From assembly GCF_008362905.1 (NCBI RefSeq), contig NZ_VFJB01000003.1, positions 7,501 to 71,500 on the forward strand: DNA of 64,000 nt. Direction: 5' to 3'. Source of the DNA: Deferribacter autotrophicus (GTDB lineage: Bacteria > Chrysiogenota > Deferribacteres > Deferribacterales > Deferribacteraceae). Below the pieces are notes generated by a model. It had not been told where the DNA came from and did no database searches. It saw nothing but the letters and a program-made list of their open reading frames with translations. Position numbers and translations under genes: made by a program. This document shows, one piece after another, positions 44,803 to 53,117 of the stretch. Within the stretch, counting starts at the first letter, position 1; every line of letters begins with the position of its first letter.

Positions 44803-46029
44803 ATGTCTAAGATACTTGCAATAGACGATAGCCCAACTATGCATCGTCTTTTCAAAATGATCTTTACTGAAGAAAATGGTTATCAGTTAGAATCTGCATA
44901 TAACGGTGAAGAAGGATTAGAAATCCTGAAAAGTTTTAATCCAGATATCATACTACTCGACTTCATTATGCCAAAATTAAACGGTTTTCAATTCGCAAAA
45001 CTTATCAGAAACGAAATGAATAAAGATACTCCTATTTTACTAATTACCAGTAGAGCTGAAGACGTAGGAACAAGATTTCAAGAAAGATTTACAAATATAG
45101 ACTTTATTGCCAAGCCTTTTCAAGCAGACGATTTAGTAAACAAAGTTGAAGAGATGCTAAATACCAAAGCAGGTAACACCGCAGAAAAATCCGCTGACTA
45201 TTTTAGCTCTTCAGATTATGAATCATTACAAGCAGAAGAATCATCTGTTTCTGTACTTCCTATCAACAAACTTCAAGATAATGTAATGACTAAAATAATC
45301 AAACAAGTAGAAGATGGCGTATTACCATCTTTGAGAGCTTTAATTGAAAAGACATTAAAATTTGAAACAGGATACATGATAAGTGATGTTAAAGGTACTG
45401 AGATTACTCTAGAGAAACTAAAGGAGCTAATCGATAAATTTGAAGGGGTTCTTACTTTTTTTAATAATGAGAGGGATATTCATTTCTACATTCAACATGG
45501 ATTTATAATTCATGCATGGATTGGAGACAATAAATTTCATGATGTTTACGAGCTATTCCAAGATATTTGCAATACATGCCTAATGGAAGTAGAAACATTA
45601 TCCGAGCTTTATGAACAATTAAGAAATTTGAACTTTGATGACAGCTACATCCAAAAATACTATGAATCATATCTTCTTTCAATAATTGAGCAGATTTTAG
45701 AGGAAGATTTTAGGTATTACCTAGATGAAGTAGATATACCAGAAACTTGCCACTCGCGATTCAAATATGACGTTTCCAACCTTATTCCTTCATACCATGT
45801 ATTTAAAGAAGAAAAAATCGAAATAAACAAAATAATTTTTGACGACAATTTAAAGCCCAAAAAAGTGGATACTAATATTTCATCGCTAAGTAGATTTGAG
45901 AAAAAAATTTATGAACTATGTGATGGAAATAAAAATGTTGGAAAAATTGTAAAATACTTTGGCAACAACAAACAAATAGCCAAAAATACAATTGGTGCAT
46001 TAGTATTAACTGGTTTTCTAGAGATATAA
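44803..46029 (+). CDS. Receiver-domain protein with long C-terminal region (chemosensory cluster)
   Basis: 408 aa from ATG 44803 after TTGGAGG. N-terminal REC about 1-120 (AIDDSPTMHRLF; phosphoacceptor IILLDFIMPKLNG; ITSRAED; AKPF). A long middle follows, then a C-terminal 50 residues (SRFEKKIYELCDGNKNVGKI, KNTIGALVLTGFLEI) that look like the winged-helix-like DUF4388/PatA tail of gliding and type IV pilus response regulators. First gene of the seven-gene chemosensory cluster. Confidence 0.75.
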   Translation: MSKILAIDDSPTMHRLFKMIFTEENGYQLESAYNGEEGLEILKSFNPDIILLDFIMPKLNGFQFAKLIRNEMNKDTPILLITSRAEDVGTRFQERFTNIDFIAKPFQADDLVNKVEEMLNTKAGNTAEKSADYFSSSDYESLQAEESSVSVLPINKLQDNVMTKIIKQVEDGVLPSLRALIEKTLKFETGYMISDVKGTEITLEKLKELIDKFEGVLTFFNNERDIHFYIQHGFIIHAWIGDNKFHDVYELFQDICNTCLMEVETLSELYEQLRNLNFDDSYIQKYYESYLLSIIEQILEEDFRYYLDEVDIPETCHSRFKYDVSNLIPSYHVFKEEKIEINKIIFDDNLKPKKVDTNISSLSRFEKKIYELCDGNKNVGKIVKYFGNNKQIAKNTIGALVLTGFLEI

Positions 46030-46043
46030 AATAGGAGGCAAAG

Positions 46044-46403
46044 ATGAAAAAAATCCTAATTGCAGAAGATAGCGCCACTGAAAGAGAAATTATGAGAAAA
46101 GCGTTAGAAGCTGAAGGGTATATAGTAGTACCTGTTGAAGATGGTGATAGAGCTATTGAAGAAGTTAAAAAGAATAACTATGACCTTGTTATATTAGATG
46201 TTATTATGCCAGGTAAAAATGGATATCAAGTATGCAGAGAAATTAAAAAAGACGAACTTATAAAAGATATACCAGTAATTATCGTAACATCCAAAGGGCA
46301 AGAAAGTGATAAATTTTGGGGTAAAAAACAAGGTGCTGATGAATATATCGTAAAACCTTTTAATATTGATGAATTGATCAAAACTGTGAAGAGGTTTCTG
46401 TGA
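46044..46403 (+). CDS. Single-domain response regulator (PilH/CheY-like)
   Basis: 119 aa. LIAEDSATEREIMRKALEAE, phosphoacceptor LVILDVIMPGKNGYQ, VTSKGQESD, YIVKPFNIDEL. AGGAGGCAAAG before ATG. GTGA overlap with the next gene. Likely output of the CheA below or a phosphate sink. Confidence 0.9.
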   Translation: MKKILIAEDSATEREIMRKALEAEGYIVVPVEDGDRAIEEVKKNNYDLVILDVIMPGKNGYQVCREIKKDELIKDIPVIIVTSKGQESDKFWGKKQGADEYIVKPFNIDELIKTVKRFL

Positions 46404-46867
46404 TCAAAGAACTCCTTGATAAAAAACTAAAAAAAGATGTCTTCGCAGATAAGGTAGAAAAAGAAACATTTATTGAATGTAAAGTAGGAAATTTTATATT
46501 TTTTATCAACTTAAAAGATGTCTATATAATCTTAGATTTTAAACCACTTGTGGAAATCCCTGGTGCACCACCACATCTACTCGGTTTAGTTTATTATCAG
46601 GGGGAAGTAATACCAATATTAGACTTGAAAAGTTATCTCAATCAAACATTAGTTCAAAAGACAATTGACACAAGATATGTTATTATAAAAGCAAAAGATG
46701 AATTATTGGGTATTTTTGTGGATGAATCATCTAAAATGATATCAATACCAAAACCTTCTATTGAACCCGTTGACGAAGAATTATTTAGCTTTAAATGTAA
46801 ATATCAAAATGATGAAATCAAAATTTTAGATGTGTTAAAGTGCTATAACGTATTCAAAATTGATTAA
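46400..46867 (+). CDS. cheW: CheW-like coupling protein
   Basis: 155 aa from GTG (GAGG upstream). VGNFIFFINLKDVYIILDFK, EIPGAPPHLLGLVYYQGEVI PILDL pattern is CheW, and VDESSKMISIPKPSIEP follows. Bridges receptor and CheA. The N-terminal 30 residues are extra. Confidence 0.9.
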   Translation: MIKELLDKKLKKDVFADKVEKETFIECKVGNFIFFINLKDVYIILDFKPLVEIPGAPPHLLGLVYYQGEVIPILDLKSYLNQTLVQKTIDTRYVIIKAKDELLGIFVDESSKMISIPKPSIEPVDEELFSFKCKYQNDEIKILDVLKCYNVFKID

Positions 46868-46879
46868 AAGGAGTGGACC

Positions 46880-49030
46880 ATGAGACTTAGTTTGAATGTC
46901 AAGCTTTTCATTTTGATCCTTTTACTGATTTTCGTTACAGGATTTATTTCTTCTTATTTTATCTACAAAAACTCTACAAACTTGGCTCTATCTCAGGTAC
47001 AAAAAGAACTTTCTGGTAAGGTTAATAATGTCCGTGTGATTTTAGACCAGATAAATGAGGATATAATTTCTACAGTATCAGTTACCTCTAAACTTCAAGA
47101 ACTAAAAGATGCTTTTAAAAATAATGAAGGTAAGAGAAAACTTAATAAAGTCTTTAATGACCTTTTAGCCAGAAAAGAAATCGGATATATTAAGGGTTTT
47201 TTTGTAATAGACCAAGATTACAATTATGTGAATAAAAAGTTTTTATTTAAAGGAGACGTACCTGGTATCGATGAATTTATATATTTTGAAGACTTAGAAA
47301 AAGAAAAGATTTATTTCGAACCTATACTCTCTTTAGATTTCCCTTATTTTGTCTACTACACAGGAATTTTTGAAAAAGGTAAAGTAATTGGAGCCCTTGG
47401 CGCAGTAATTGATGCTAACTACATATTCACTTCAATTAACAAATCATTTACTGTGAGTGACACTCATAATGCTGAGCCAACATGTCAGAGCTGCCATACA
47501 GGAGCAAAAAATCTTTTAAATTATGGTTTTGTTATAACTCTAGATGATGATGGTAATGTACTTTTAAATACTCTTGTGCGGGATACACTTATTATTGCTC
47601 CTGATAAGTTTTTTACAAATATTGTAAAAAAAGAAAAGAACAACCTTTTTAAAAAATCATCAATCAATAAAGAGATTTCTTTCCAAAACAACAGTTTTGT
47701 AGGCTCTATTGGTAGAGTAAAACTTAATAAATTTGGTATTATAGTAGGATTTTTTAAGAATAAAGCCTATATCTTAGGTCAAGTTGAAAAAGGTAGACAG
47801 CAATCAATCCTTTATACTATAGGTTTTGCTGGTTTAGTGTTTATTTTAACTTTCATCCTCTTCAAAATACTTTTCTCCCCATTATTCAAAATAAATGAAA
47901 CAATGCGTAAAATTCAAAAAGGTGATTATGATGTAAGGGTTAATATTAAAAGAAAAGATGAACTGGGTGATATTGCAAATACTTTGAATGAAATGCTTGA
48001 TGAATTAAAAAATTATATTCAAACGGAAGAAGACAGAAATAGGCTACAAAGACAAGCAATACATCTGATGGATGTAGTTTCGAGTGCCGCTGATGGTGAT
48101 TTGACCGTTCAAGCAGAAGTTACCGCTGATGAATTAGGAGCGGTAGCAGACGCTTTTAACCTCATGACAGAAAGTATAAAAGAATTAATTGCTGAAATTA
48201 AAAAAGCTGGTGACTCCATTGTTGTGTCTACAGAAGAACTGCTTAAATCTTCAGAAAAAACAACTTCTGGAGCACGTACTCAGATTGAAGAGCTTGAAAA
48301 AGTTGTTCAAAAATTGGAAGATTTTAAAAATAGAATGACTGAGGTTGTGAATAATGCCACCAAAACCCTTGATATAGTTTTACAGGCAAACGAAAGTGCT
48401 AAAAGCGGTAGTAAGCTACTTCAAGAAACCATTGAGGCTATGAGTGACGTTAGAAGGTATTCTCAACTCGCCAGTAAAAAAGTTAAATCCCTTGGTGAAA
48501 AATCAATGGAGATTAACGAAATCACAAGAGTGATTAGTGAAATTTCTAACCAAACAAACCTTCTTGCTCTCAACGCAGCTATAGAGGCAGCAAGGGCAGG
48601 TGAATATGGACACGGATTTGCAGTGGTTGCTGATGAAATCAGAAAGCTTGCAGAAAGAACAAATGAAGCAACAGAAGAAATTACTAATCTTATAAAAACA
48701 GTACAATCAGAGACAAGTGATACAGTAAAACTCGTTGAAGAAAGTTCCTCCAAAATTGAATTTAGTTCGAAGAAAACCGAAGAGGCAGGAGATGCGTTAA
48801 TTGAAATTAATGTAAGCCTTGAAAAAGTGAGTAACGCGGTAAAAGGGATGACAGAAAGTATTTCCTCTCAAGCTGAAGAGACCAATGAAGTAATCGAAGT
48901 AACTGAAAAAGTGAAAGAAATTGCAGTAACTACTGCTCAAGACGTTCAGAAAACCAACAAGATTATTACAACTCTATCCCAACTTGCTGAAATGCTCAAT
49001 GAAGCAGTTAACAAATTTAAAGTAGAGTAA
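46880..49030 (+). CDS. Methyl-accepting chemotaxis protein with periplasmic CxxCH heme motif
   Basis: 716 aa. TM1 about 8-30, periplasmic sensor about 31-310, TM2 about 312-335, HAMP ([20 protein letters not shown]), a second HAMP-like segment ([14 protein letters not shown]), and a C-terminal signalling domain with hairpin tip [20 protein letters not shown]. In the periplasmic part Cys202, Cys205 and His206 (CQSCH) form a c-type heme motif. The double HAMP resembles PilJ-type receptors. AGGAG before the ATG. Confidence 0.93.
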
Positions 49031-49032
49031 AA

Positions 49033-51351
49033 ATGGCAAATATTAATAAACAGGAATTAGTAAATTTTTTCCTAATGGAATCTGGAGAACATTTTGATAC
49101 CATATTTAACGGTATCAATGTTCTCCTTTCTGATCCTGATAATTGGTCTATTATTGAAGAAATTTTTAGAAGCACTCATACCTTAAAAGGCTCTTCTGCA
49201 ATGGTGGAATTTAATAACTTCTCAGAAGTTGCCCATTCCCTTGAAAATTTACTGGAAGGGATCAAAGGGGGGAGAATAAAACGAAATAAAGAAATCTTTT
49301 TATTTCTATTAGAACTCTTTCACAAGTTGGATGAACATTTAAAAAAAAATAAGAATGATTTAGATGAAAATATAAAAGAAAAATATATAAACAAGATAAC
49401 ATCTTATTTAAAAAGCAATGAAACAATACCAGCAAAAACAAAACCGGAATTACGAAAAGTTGCTAAGCCATCGAAAAAACTAATAGACCAAGAATTTCCT
49501 ATCAGAACTCCCGATTCTATAGATTCTTATATCCGTATAAATATTGAAAAGATTGATTTTCTTATAAACCTCGCAGGTGAATTAATAGTTGCAAGAAACA
49601 GACAAGGAGAATCTTTAAAAGAGATTCTTGCTCTTACAAAAGAACTTGAATACTCAAAACAACGATTAAATAAAATCCTTGATGAATTCAGGGAAAAATA
49701 TATGTATTCATTGCAACAAGAAGGAAATAATGAAGACAATGAAAGCATAATATTATCAGATTTTTTTGAAGGAGAATTTGATAAATACACCGATATTAAT
49801 ATATTAACCAGACAGTTAGTTGAAGTCGGTAACGATATTTCAAGCTTGATTTCTGAACTTTTCCACAAATTGTCCCAATTTCAAACTGATATTCTTTACA
49901 TAAATAGAGTAACTGACTCCATTGAAAAAAGTCTTACAAAAATGAAATTGGTTCCTGTAAAAAACCTGTTCAATACTGCTATGCGAACAGCAACAATTAC
50001 TGCAAACAATGAAGGTAAAAGTGTTAATATTTTCATCTCTGGGGAAAAGATCGAAATAGACAAATCTATTCTCGACATGATCAATGATGCCTTTTTACAT
50101 CTTGTAAGAAATTCTGTTTCACATGGTATTGAAACAGAGAAAGAAAGAAAAGAAAAAGGCAAACCAGCTACTGGAAGTATATATTTAAGAGCTTACAGAT
50201 CGGGAACTTCCATAATTTTTGAAATAGAAGATGATGGTAAAGGGATTGATATAAATACAGTAAAAGAAAAAGCTGTATCTTTAGAACTTATACAAGAATA
50301 TGAAGCAAATAATCTAAGAATGGACGATCTTTTGCAATTTATATTTACACCAGGATTCTCTACAGCAGAATCCATCACAGATGTTTCAGGCAGAGGAATA
50401 GGCCTTGATGTAGTAAAACGTATTGTTGAAAATCTTGGAGGATCAGTATCTGTCTACACAGAAAAAGACAAATTTACAAAATTTATCCTTGTTATACCCG
50501 TAACTCAATTTATTGCCGAATATTTGATCGTCAAAGAAGATAAACATATCTTTGCCATACCACTTCAATCTGTATACGAAATCATCCCTCTGGAAGTTAA
50601 TAAAATCAAAAAAATTGGAGAGCATTTCTTTTACAATCTGAGAAATGAAGTTTATGAAATTGTAGATTTAATGGTTGCTTTGGGTGTAAAGAAAAAAAAT
50701 GAATTCAGGGAAAATTCATTTGGAATACTTGTAGATGGTCCACAAAAAAAATATATGATTCAAGTGGAATCTATTTTAGGTAGAGAAACTACTATAACCA
50801 AAAAATTTAAGCCATTTTTAGTGAAAATAAATAAATTCTTGGGAACTTCAGTAAGTCCCAAAGGCGACGTAAGACTAATTTTAGATACTGTTCGTCTGTT
50901 CTCAACAAAAATCAAGGTAAGAGATTTCACAAAAATTGATAAACCAAAAGATGAAAAAACCATCTCATATCATTCAAATGGAATTCTAATTGTTGATGAT
51001 TCAATTTCGGTAAGAAAATACTTATCAGATATTTTAGTTAAAAATGGCTATAAAGTCGTTCAAGCAAAAGATGGATTAAACGCTTTAGAAATTCTTGAAA
51101 CAAGTAGGTTTCCTTATATTATTACTGACCTGGAAATGCCAAACGTTAATGGTTATGAATTAATTGATAAAATAAGAAATTCTTTACAGGACAATGAAGT
51201 TAGGATATTTGTCGTAACTTCAAGAGCCACTGAAAAACATAAAGATAAAGCATTAGAACTAGGTGCGAATGGCTTTATCATTAAACCATTTACAGAAGAT
51301 TCCATACTAAAAGCTATAAAAGGTATAGATCATGAAAGCATTGATGTTTGA
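49033..51351 (+). CDS. cheA: Hybrid histidine kinase CheA with C-terminal receiver
   Basis: 772 aa. HPt domain with phosphorylated His49 (FRSTHTLKGSSAM), dimerisation/kinase core (HLVRNSVSHGIETEKERKEKG, DDGKGID, GRGIGLDVVKRIVENLGG), CheW-like regulatory domain (about 490-630), REC domain (IVDDSISVRKYL; TDLEMPNVNGYE; IIKPF) about 650-770. Fusions of this kind occur in Pil-Chp, Frz-like and other non-flagellar chemosensory systems. Overlaps the next gene by 20 nt. Confidence 0.95.
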   Translation: MANINKQELVNFFLMESGEHFDTIFNGINVLLSDPDNWSIIEEIFRSTHTLKGSSAMVEFNNFSEVAHSLENLLEGIKGGRIKRNKEIFLFLLELFHKLDEHLKKNKNDLDENIKEKYINKITSYLKSNETIPAKTKPELRKVAKPSKKLIDQEFPIRTPDSIDSYIRINIEKIDFLINLAGELIVARNRQGESLKEILALTKELEYSKQRLNKILDEFREKYMYSLQQEGNNEDNESIILSDFFEGEFDKYTDINILTRQLVEVGNDISSLISELFHKLSQFQTDILYINRVTDSIEKSLTKMKLVPVKNLFNTAMRTATITANNEGKSVNIFISGEKIEIDKSILDMINDAFLHLVRNSVSHGIETEKERKEKGKPATGSIYLRAYRSGTSIIFEIEDDGKGIDINTVKEKAVSLELIQEYEANNLRMDDLLQFIFTPGFSTAESITDVSGRGIGLDVVKRIVENLGGSVSVYTEKDKFTKFILVIPVTQFIAEYLIVKEDKHIFAIPLQSVYEIIPLEVNKIKKIGEHFFYNLRNEVYEIVDLMVALGVKKKNEFRENSFGILVDGPQKKYMIQVESILGRETTITKKFKPFLVKINKFLGTSVSPKGDVRLILDTVRLFSTKIKVRDFTKIDKPKDEKTISYHSNGILIVDDSISVRKYLSDILVKNGYKVVQAKDGLNALEILETSRFPYIITDLEMPNVNGYELIDKIRNSLQDNEVRIFVVTSRATEKHKDKALELGANGFIIKPFTEDSILKAIKGIDHESIDV

Positions 51352-51709
51352 ATGTGGAAAAATCGGTTTTTTAATTGATCTAAACAACTTATTGCATGTG
51401 TCAGACATTAATGACATACAAAGACAAGGAGAAGATGAAATATTAATATTTGATTTTAGTAAGTTCTTAGATGGAAATACTAAACCACAATATGTAATAT
51501 TTTTGACCGATGAAAAAAGATATATTGGGGTGCTAGCTGACAAAATTTATGATATAATAAGTTATAATGAATTTAAACCTTTCGAAAAAAACAGTTTTGA
51601 TGTAGAATTTATAAAAGGTGTTGTGGAATATAACCATAAATTGTTATATTTACTTAACGCTGAAAATTTGATAGAGGTTGCTTATGAAGAAAAAAATAAT
51701 GCTAGTTGA
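51332..51709 (+). CDS. Small CheW-like domain protein
   Basis: 125 aa, weakly CheW-like (FECGKIGFLIDLNNLLHVSD, IFDFSKFLDGNTKPQYVIFL, KRYIGVLADKIYDIISYNEF). Shorter than the other CheW and missing the PGAP-type loop. It could be a second coupling protein or an adaptor between CheA and the next protein. Overlaps both neighbours. Confidence 0.7.
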   Translation: MKALMFECGKIGFLIDLNNLLHVSDINDIQRQGEDEILIFDFSKFLDGNTKPQYVIFLTDEKRYIGVLADKIYDIISYNEFKPFEKNSFDVEFIKGVVEYNHKLLYLLNAENLIEVAYEEKNNAS

Positions 51710-53117
51710 TGACAGTGTTACAATCCACAGAGTTATTGACCTTTCTTTGGATGATGAACTGTATGAAGTTGCAAAAGCATTCTCTTCAGATGAAGCAAAG
51801 CAGAAACTACTAAACTTTTCTCCAGACGTTATTTTAATTGATAATAAGCTACCTGACATAAAAATTGATGAGTTTGTAAGAGAATTAAAATCATCTTATC
51901 CTGATACTAAAGTTGTCTTACTTGTAGGTGCTTTTGATAACTTTCAACAAGAAGACTTAGAAAAAGTTGGTGCCGATTCTTATCTTTTAAAACCATTCAA
52001 TTCTACCGCATTGGAAGAAGTAATTGAAAAATTTTCAATCAAAGAAGAAGTTCCCGCTGCTGAAGTTGCACAACAAAAGGTAGAAAGGGAAGAAGATGTA
52101 GAAGAACTTCTCGCGACTGTAACTTCTGAAGCACAAAAAGAAGAGACAGAACAATTCGAAGAAATTTTAGGAGAAATAGAAACTGAAGAAGAAAAACAAG
52201 AAAAAATCACTGAAATTGATACTGAAAAAGAAGAAAGCGTAGAAGATCTTTTCAAAGATCTTGAAAAAGAGATACAAGCAGGCGAAGAATTAGAAAAACC
52301 TGCAGAAGGCATCGAAGATATTTTTTCTGATTTAGAAGTAACTGAACCATCTGTCACTGAAGAGATTCCTAAAGAAGAAGTAAAAGAGCAAGCTGATGTT
52401 GATTTATTGTCGGAACTTAGAGAATTAACAGAGGAGAAAGAAGCTGAAGAACAAGTAGGTGAAGACAAAGTTGACGAACTCTTCCAGGAGCTTGAAGAAG
52501 AGCTAACTTCAACAGAAGTGCAGACTGGAGAAGGATTATCAGAAGAACTTTTTGAACATTTAGAATCTGAACAAGCTGAAATCCCAGAAGTCAAACCAAC
52601 CACCAGCGAAGAACTTGAAGAAAAAATTGAAGCAGAACCATCTCAGATAGATGCAAAGGTTGAAAACCTTCTTGAAAAAGAATTGCACATAACCGAAGAA
52701 GCTCCTCCTTTGGGTGAAATTGATAAAGAAATTGAACCTTCACTGGAAGAAACAGAACCTGAAACTACCGTAGAACCAGAAGCTGTTCGTTTGGAAGAAG
52801 AAATTGAAAAAGAAGAAATTGAGGAAAAACCTGAAGAAGTGTCCCTGCGTTTTGATACTGAAACTTTAGTAAAAACAATAGAAAATTCTCTTAACAATTT
52901 AAAAACTGAGCTTTTAAAAGATGTAAAAGCTCAAATTTCAACTAATATTATCAAATCAGCACTATCTGAAATAATCAATGAAGATTTTATAAAAGAAACA
53001 CTTAAAGATGTTTTATCAAAAACTATCGAAAAAGCTGTATGGGAGATTGTCCCAGAACTCGCCGAAAAACTCATTATAGAAGAAATCGAAAAACTAAAAA
53101 AAGGTGAAGTTGAATAA
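51684..53117 (+). CDS. Receiver protein with long acidic linker and PopZ-like tail
   Basis: 477 aa from ATG 51684 (GAGG upstream). REC about 1-120 (MLVDDSVTIHRVIDLSLDDE; phosphoacceptor VILIDNKLPDI; LKPF). Residues about 128-395 are a Glu-rich, low-complexity linker with repeated ExLF/ExxF words (VEDLFKDLE, VDELFQELE, SEELFEHLE). The last ~85 residues are helical and end VWEIVPELAEKLIIEEIEKL, similar in pattern to the C-terminal oligomerisation region of PopZ (DUF2497) and to tails of delta-proteobacterial response regulators. May organise the array at a cell pole. Confidence 0.75.
   Translation: MKKKIMLVDDSVTIHRVIDLSLDDELYEVAKAFSSDEAKQKLLNFSPDVILIDNKLPDIKIDEFVRELKSSYPDTKVVLLVGAFDNFQQEDLEKVGADSYLLKPFNSTALEEVIEKFSIKEEVPAAEVAQQKVEREEDVEELLATVTSEAQKEETEQFEEILGEIETEEEKQEKITEIDTEKEESVEDLFKDLEKEIQAGEELEKPAEGIEDIFSDLEVTEPSVTEEIPKEEVKEQADVDLLSELRELTEEKEAEEQVGEDKVDELFQELEEELTSTEVQTGEGLSEELFEHLESEQAEIPEVKPTTSEELEEKIEAEPSQIDAKVENLLEKELHITEEAPPLGEIDKEIEPSLEETEPETTVEPEAVRLEEEIEKEEIEEKPEEVSLRFDTETLVKTIENSLNNLKTELLKDVKAQISTNIIKSALSEIINEDFIKETLKDVLSKTIEKAVWEIVPELAEKLIIEEIEKLKKGEVE

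Follow-up and report, generated by a model that had tools for sequence, protein, structure and literature searches.

A conserved chemosensory operon in Deferribacterales encodes a predicted double Cache receptor with a c-type heme motif and a RomR-like protein

The window, that is the whole stretch of 64,000 nucleotides analysed here, comes from Deferribacter autotrophicus (assembly of 2,535,300 bases in 10 contigs) and carries seven forward-strand (+) genes that overlap or lie no more than 14 bases apart. Gene 1 (44803..46029; REC-x) encodes a receiver (Response_reg, E=1e-22) with a C-terminal extension and takes first place in all 11 genomes that have the operon. The extension of ~290 residues is conserved in all 11 operons and has no credible Pfam match. 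It is followed by a stand-alone receiver of CheY/PilG-like size (gene 2, 46044..46403; Response_reg, E=2.1e-30; orthologues 60-84% identical), CheW1 (gene 3, 46400..46867; CheW, E=1.4e-17), the chemoreceptor (gene 4, 46880..49030), a CheA-REC protein (gene 5, 49033..51351), a short CheW2 (gene 6, 51332..51709; E=1e-6, above the Pfam cut-off) and a RomR-like protein (gene 7, 51684..53117). This order, including the places of both CheW genes, is fixed in the 11 genomes, which belong to four families; purM lies 3' of the operon in every one and coaD 5' in all except one (G002). For gene 5, Pfam returns Hpt (H49), dimerisation, HATPase, CheW and a C-terminal REC (D655/D656, D699, T729, K751), as the original prediction of a CheA-REC hybrid would have it, and the motifs are invariant in the 11; the receiver is complete, and the Hpt histidine is kept together with the ATP-binding boxes. 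Scans for an operon promoter and terminator did no better than on shuffled sequence, and a search of genes 1 and 7 against a defence library gave nothing useful.

Gene 4 encodes 716 residues, with an RBS-like AGGAG 5' of the reading frame, and Pfam places two HAMP domains and an MCPsignal domain (signalling domain, 48374..48922, +) behind an N-terminal periplasmic sensor. Within that sensor lies the only CxxCH of the protein, C202-Q-S-C205-H206 (47483..47497, +), exactly where the original prediction had put a c-type heme motif in a double-HAMP receptor. The receptor has just two cysteines, both inside the motif, and four histidines; shuffling its residues yielded a CxxCH in 7 of 200,000 trials. 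The ten orthologues found among 60 relatives come from four families of the order, one of them that of D. autotrophicus, and the motif stands at the identical alignment position in all 11 receptors, so that its absence from close homologues, which would have spoken against heme, was not observed. Because it is invariant in the ten orthologues across four families, with sensor identities to the window protein falling to 25%, and because the only two cysteines sit within it, the motif is, on the evidence of the alignment, not a chance occurrence. It accounts for three of the 23 invariant sensor residues. His196 (47465..47467, +), six residues N-terminal of C202, is also invariant in the alignment of the 11 receptors and is a candidate second heme ligand. 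Sequence, alignment and model agree in placing the CxxCH in an exported domain, as in c-type heme proteins, and we infer that the sensor carries a covalent c-type heme.

Carriers of the operon are mostly heat-loving bacteria. A search of 385 genomes, in which up to six candidates were scored in each, found the sensor in the same 11 only. Across a collection of 85,000 species, scanned with strict and insensitive patterns, a single-sequence scan found nothing and a profile scan found three loci only, all of the known lineage; the sensor may occur beyond the four families. No match was found in the plasmids searched.

The sensor (residues 32-308; 46973..47803, +) is predicted to be a double Cache (dCache) domain. 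Models of the whole receptor and of the sensor alone (the latter by AlphaFold2, with pLDDT 86 and pTM 0.82) agree on a long helix followed by two Cache modules in succession, the distal at residues ~104-191 and the proximal at ~216-298, with the CxxCH in the loop that connects them. Model confidence is low in this loop, which would not be surprising where the heme is missing from the model. Foldseek matches of the sensor model in the PDB are dCache sensors, at an aligned sequence identity of ~9-16%, and a sequence search of the PDB with the sensor gave nothing credible. Model and Foldseek together thus show the architecture of dCache_1 (PF02743), in which a long N-terminal helix leads into two Cache modules. 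At the sequence level the gathering cut-off of that family (45 bits) was not reached; the best score was 28.7 bits, and the partial, sub-cut-off matches, found in orthologues only, cover the first half of the sensor in some and the second half in others.

The original prediction had likened the receptor to the heme receptors of metal reducers, a likeness that holds for function and fails for fold: the modelled sensor is of the dCache type, its motif lying between two modules, and not the single-Cache PF11845 domain of Geobacter. Membership of the Geobacter/Tll0287 heme family was ruled out by profile as well as by fold. No PF11845 match was found for the window sensor (E up to 10), and the family is missing from those listed for the 11 orthologues; as a control, the profile did match another MCP of the same genome (E=9.8e-29). 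That protein (L024:1243-2952 (-), contig C2) is a second c-heme MCP, of the Tll0287/sCache_heme type, and D. autotrophicus therefore appears to have heme chemoreceptors of two kinds that differ in structure. Since the number of modules and the point of insertion both differ from those of the sCache_heme family, the dCache heme looks like a separate acquisition. The inter-module loop is a place at which no heme-attachment site has been described before; in the non-subscription literature we found nothing that combines dCache, heme and CXXCH, apart from a preprint on the sCache_heme family (PMC12889525).

The C-terminal arm of the receptor, from tip to end, has 141 residues as against 127 in E. 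coli Tsr; at 14 residues more than in Tsr, it would be compatible with the 40H class. None of the 11 receptors has the strict methylation-site pattern in its cytoplasmic part. We rejected this as proof of a methylation-free receptor, since several further MCPs in the genome lack the pattern too. The operon contains no CheR or CheB, as originally noted; a look elsewhere in the D. autotrophicus genome, which the original prediction had proposed, turned up five CheR-domain and three CheB-domain matches, and in Deferribacter the products of these distant genes could modify the receptor.

In two Flexistipes genomes (G003 and G010) the system is reduced further. Each has one MCP and one CheA (counted by its dimerisation domain), both from the operon, and genome-wide searches found no CheR, CheB or FlhA. 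Type IV pilus ATPases are present in both, and those of G010 were confirmed as members of the PilB and PilT/PilU families. In a third Flexistipes genome (G017), FlhA and seven MCPs are present, and comparison with the other two indicates that flagella, together with flagellar chemotaxis, were lost recently within the genus and that the operon was spared. Flexistipes sinusarabici is described as non-motile, and its genome paper lists cheB, cheR and cheW as missing and links the absence of cheW to non-motility. Our domain searches agree for cheB and cheR; they disagree for cheW. The two CheW proteins of the Flexistipes operon (L018:4255-4632 (-) and L018:9200-9673 (-)) both pass the Pfam cut-off. 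The original prediction of a non-flagellar cluster gains support: two genomes that lack FlhA have no chemosensory system apart from the operon, and its last gene, in genomes that also carry MglB/MglA and pilus ATPases, is RomR-like.

Gene 7 resembles Myxococcus xanthus RomR in features described for that protein (PMC3441718, PMC12719032). RomR consists of a REC domain, an unstructured linker and a RomR-C region with an invariant Trp and Pro (PMC3441718); gene 7 has, by Pfam and alignment, a REC with D53, a Glu-rich linker (32% Glu) and a C-terminal helix in which E449, K450, W453, V456, P457 and E461 are invariant. RomR residues E390, K391, W394 and E402 contact MglC, and binding of MglC needs W394 (PMC12719032). 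The invariant E449, K450, W453 and E461 of gene 7 have the identical spacing. Receiver residues D9, D10, D53 and K103 are kept in all 11 proteins. RomR homologues have been reported in Deferribacterales; in the non-subscription literature we found no report that links RomR, in this phylum, with a chemosensory operon. RomR sets which cell end is active in Myxococcus, where its kinase has not been established (PMC4546325, PMC3441718) and where phosphorylation by FrzE was not seen in vitro in unpublished work (PMC3441718).

As is characteristic of RomR, gene 7 occurs together with MglA and MglB. MglB-type Roadblock proteins were found in all 11 genomes with the operon but not in any of 15 relatives that lack it, and in the loci read an MglA-like GTPase adjoins MglB. 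In the D. autotrophicus genome, the best PDB matches of these two proteins are MglA (E=8e-95) and MglB (E=1e-40). A further Roadblock protein on contig C4 (L069:1414-1770 (-)) is MglC-like (PDB MglC, E=1.1e-5). It is overlapped by a TPR protein (L069:1766-2596 (-)), the pair recurs in relatives, and the polarity system might include this TPR protein as well. On a tree of flagellar CheA the operon families group together, with one long-branch genome of family f5 (G005) among them, so the co-occurrence with MglB may reflect one shared event and not many independent ones. G005, whose branch is very long, has neither the operon nor MglB, a pattern that loss of both together would explain.

Taken together, these results suggest a redox- or NO-responsive chemosensory array, able to work without methylation, that feeds RomR and MglA/MglB and so controls type IV pilus polarity, a reading to which we give about an even chance of being correct. 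One covalent c-type heme, held by C202, C205 and H206, would sit in the loop joining the two Cache modules, and a change at its iron (most likely in redox state, possibly the binding of NO) would move the two modules against each other. This movement would be passed through the membrane helix and the two HAMP domains to the receptor tip, and from there via CheW1 and CheW2 to the CheA-REC kinase. CheA would then phosphorylate the receivers of the operon, the RomR-like protein among them, while its own REC domain and the single REC of gene 2 might act as sink or relay. Finally, RomR together with MglA, MglB and the MglC-like protein, all three encoded elsewhere, would choose or flip the pole at which the type IV pili work. 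Several points weigh against this reading: the low model confidence of the motif loop, the chance that a single shared event lies behind the MglB co-occurrence, the failure to see RomR phosphorylated by FrzE in vitro, the non-motility described for F. sinusarabici, and the CheR and CheB encoded elsewhere in Deferribacter. A bolder version makes the dCache joint an independent second acquisition of heme c in the Cache superfamily, the array free of adaptation enzymes, and CheA the direct kinase of a RomR-type regulator, such that the Ras-like MglA polarity switch and the pole at which pili are active are set by periplasmic redox state or by NO; this combination we put forward tentatively, judging it somewhat more likely to fail in some part than to hold in full.

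Different readings of the signal and of the output need to be weighed against this pathway. The heme may sense nitric oxide or another gas instead of redox, with the remaining pathway unchanged: sCache_heme proteins of the signalling type bind NO tightly and do not bind oxygen (PMC12889525), and D. autotrophicus reduces nitrate through nitrite (PMC6896113). The receptor sensor lies outside the sCache_heme family, however, and the invariant His196 could give a six-coordinate heme, which would favour redox sensing; we therefore regard a gas-sensing receptor as unlikely, if a serious contender. Gene 2 is the most conserved receiver, and the C-terminal part of gene 1 is uncharacterised, so the output might run through these two proteins to exopolysaccharide, pilin amount or gene expression, with gene 7 a pole marker that has no role in phosphotransfer. 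The non-motility ascribed to F. sinusarabici and the little importance of the RomR phospho-site in Bdellovibrio (PMC6428892) would suit such an output. It accords less well with a gene 7 that keeps D9, D10, D53 and K103 throughout and always stays within the operon, and we consider it rather improbable.

D. autotrophicus also has FlhA and a second, flagellar-type CheA, and the receptor could in principle join that array and serve flagellar chemotaxis. In each of the two FlhA-less genomes, however, the receptor and its CheA are the only such pair, and wherever the receptor is found it stays with its own CheA and CheWs; we think a flagellar role highly improbable.

Should the pathway of a heme receptor controlling pilus polarity through RomR be right, these bacteria may direct their movement over surfaces by redox state or by a gas. 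Flexistipes would provide a chemosensory system that is by nature limited to one receptor and one CheA, without CheR and CheB, and the published claim that F. sinusarabici lacks cheW would be corrected. A RomR-like gene that shares an operon with one CheA and one receptor also bears on the question of which kinase acts on RomR. As to the sensor, the single-Cache heme family is, according to the 2026 preprint (PMC12889525), the first in which a Cache domain is known to hold a covalent cofactor; the dCache heme, if present, would be a second and structurally different one.

Among known receptors, those of the sCache_heme/Tll0287/DUF3365 family (PF11845; Geobacter GSU0582 and GSU0935) share a periplasmic Cache-superfamily sensor with a CxxCH, fused to HAMP and MCP domains. 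As the family is defined (PMC12889525), its motif occupies a different position from the dCache inter-module loop; the receptor here has two modules, not one, with the CxxCH between them, and lacks a PF11845 match. In the Geobacter proteins heme ligation changes with redox state (PMC8396549), and a sCache_heme protein of the signalling type acts like a sensor of NO. DcrA of Desulfovibrio vulgaris is likewise an MCP with a periplasmic c-type heme, its reported signal being redox potential or oxygen (PMC8396549), but it differs in having a cytoplasmic PAS domain. The dCache_1 chemoreceptors Mlp24, PctA and Tlp3 have the same sensor fold, bind small ligands and are without a heme motif.

The operon shares with the Pil-Chp system (Tfp class) of Pseudomonas aeruginosa the order REC, CheW, receptor, CheA, a CheA with a REC domain and possibly the 40H hairpin, with which the receptor is compatible in length. 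It differs in having one Hpt match, a RomR-like gene at its end and a location that is not beside pilus genes; Pfam gave no match to the PilJ sensor domain, and the operon has no PilK-type CheR. With Frz and RomR/MglA/MglB of M. xanthus it has in common a CheA-REC kinase, chemosensory input, a RomR-like regulator, MglA/MglB and type IV pili. In Frz the receptor (FrzCD) is cytoplasmic and is partnered by CheR (FrzF) and CheB (FrzG); in the operon described here, these partners are lacking, the receptor is membrane-bound (as modelled) with a predicted heme and a possibly 40H-like hairpin, and the RomR-like gene lies within the chemosensory operon itself.
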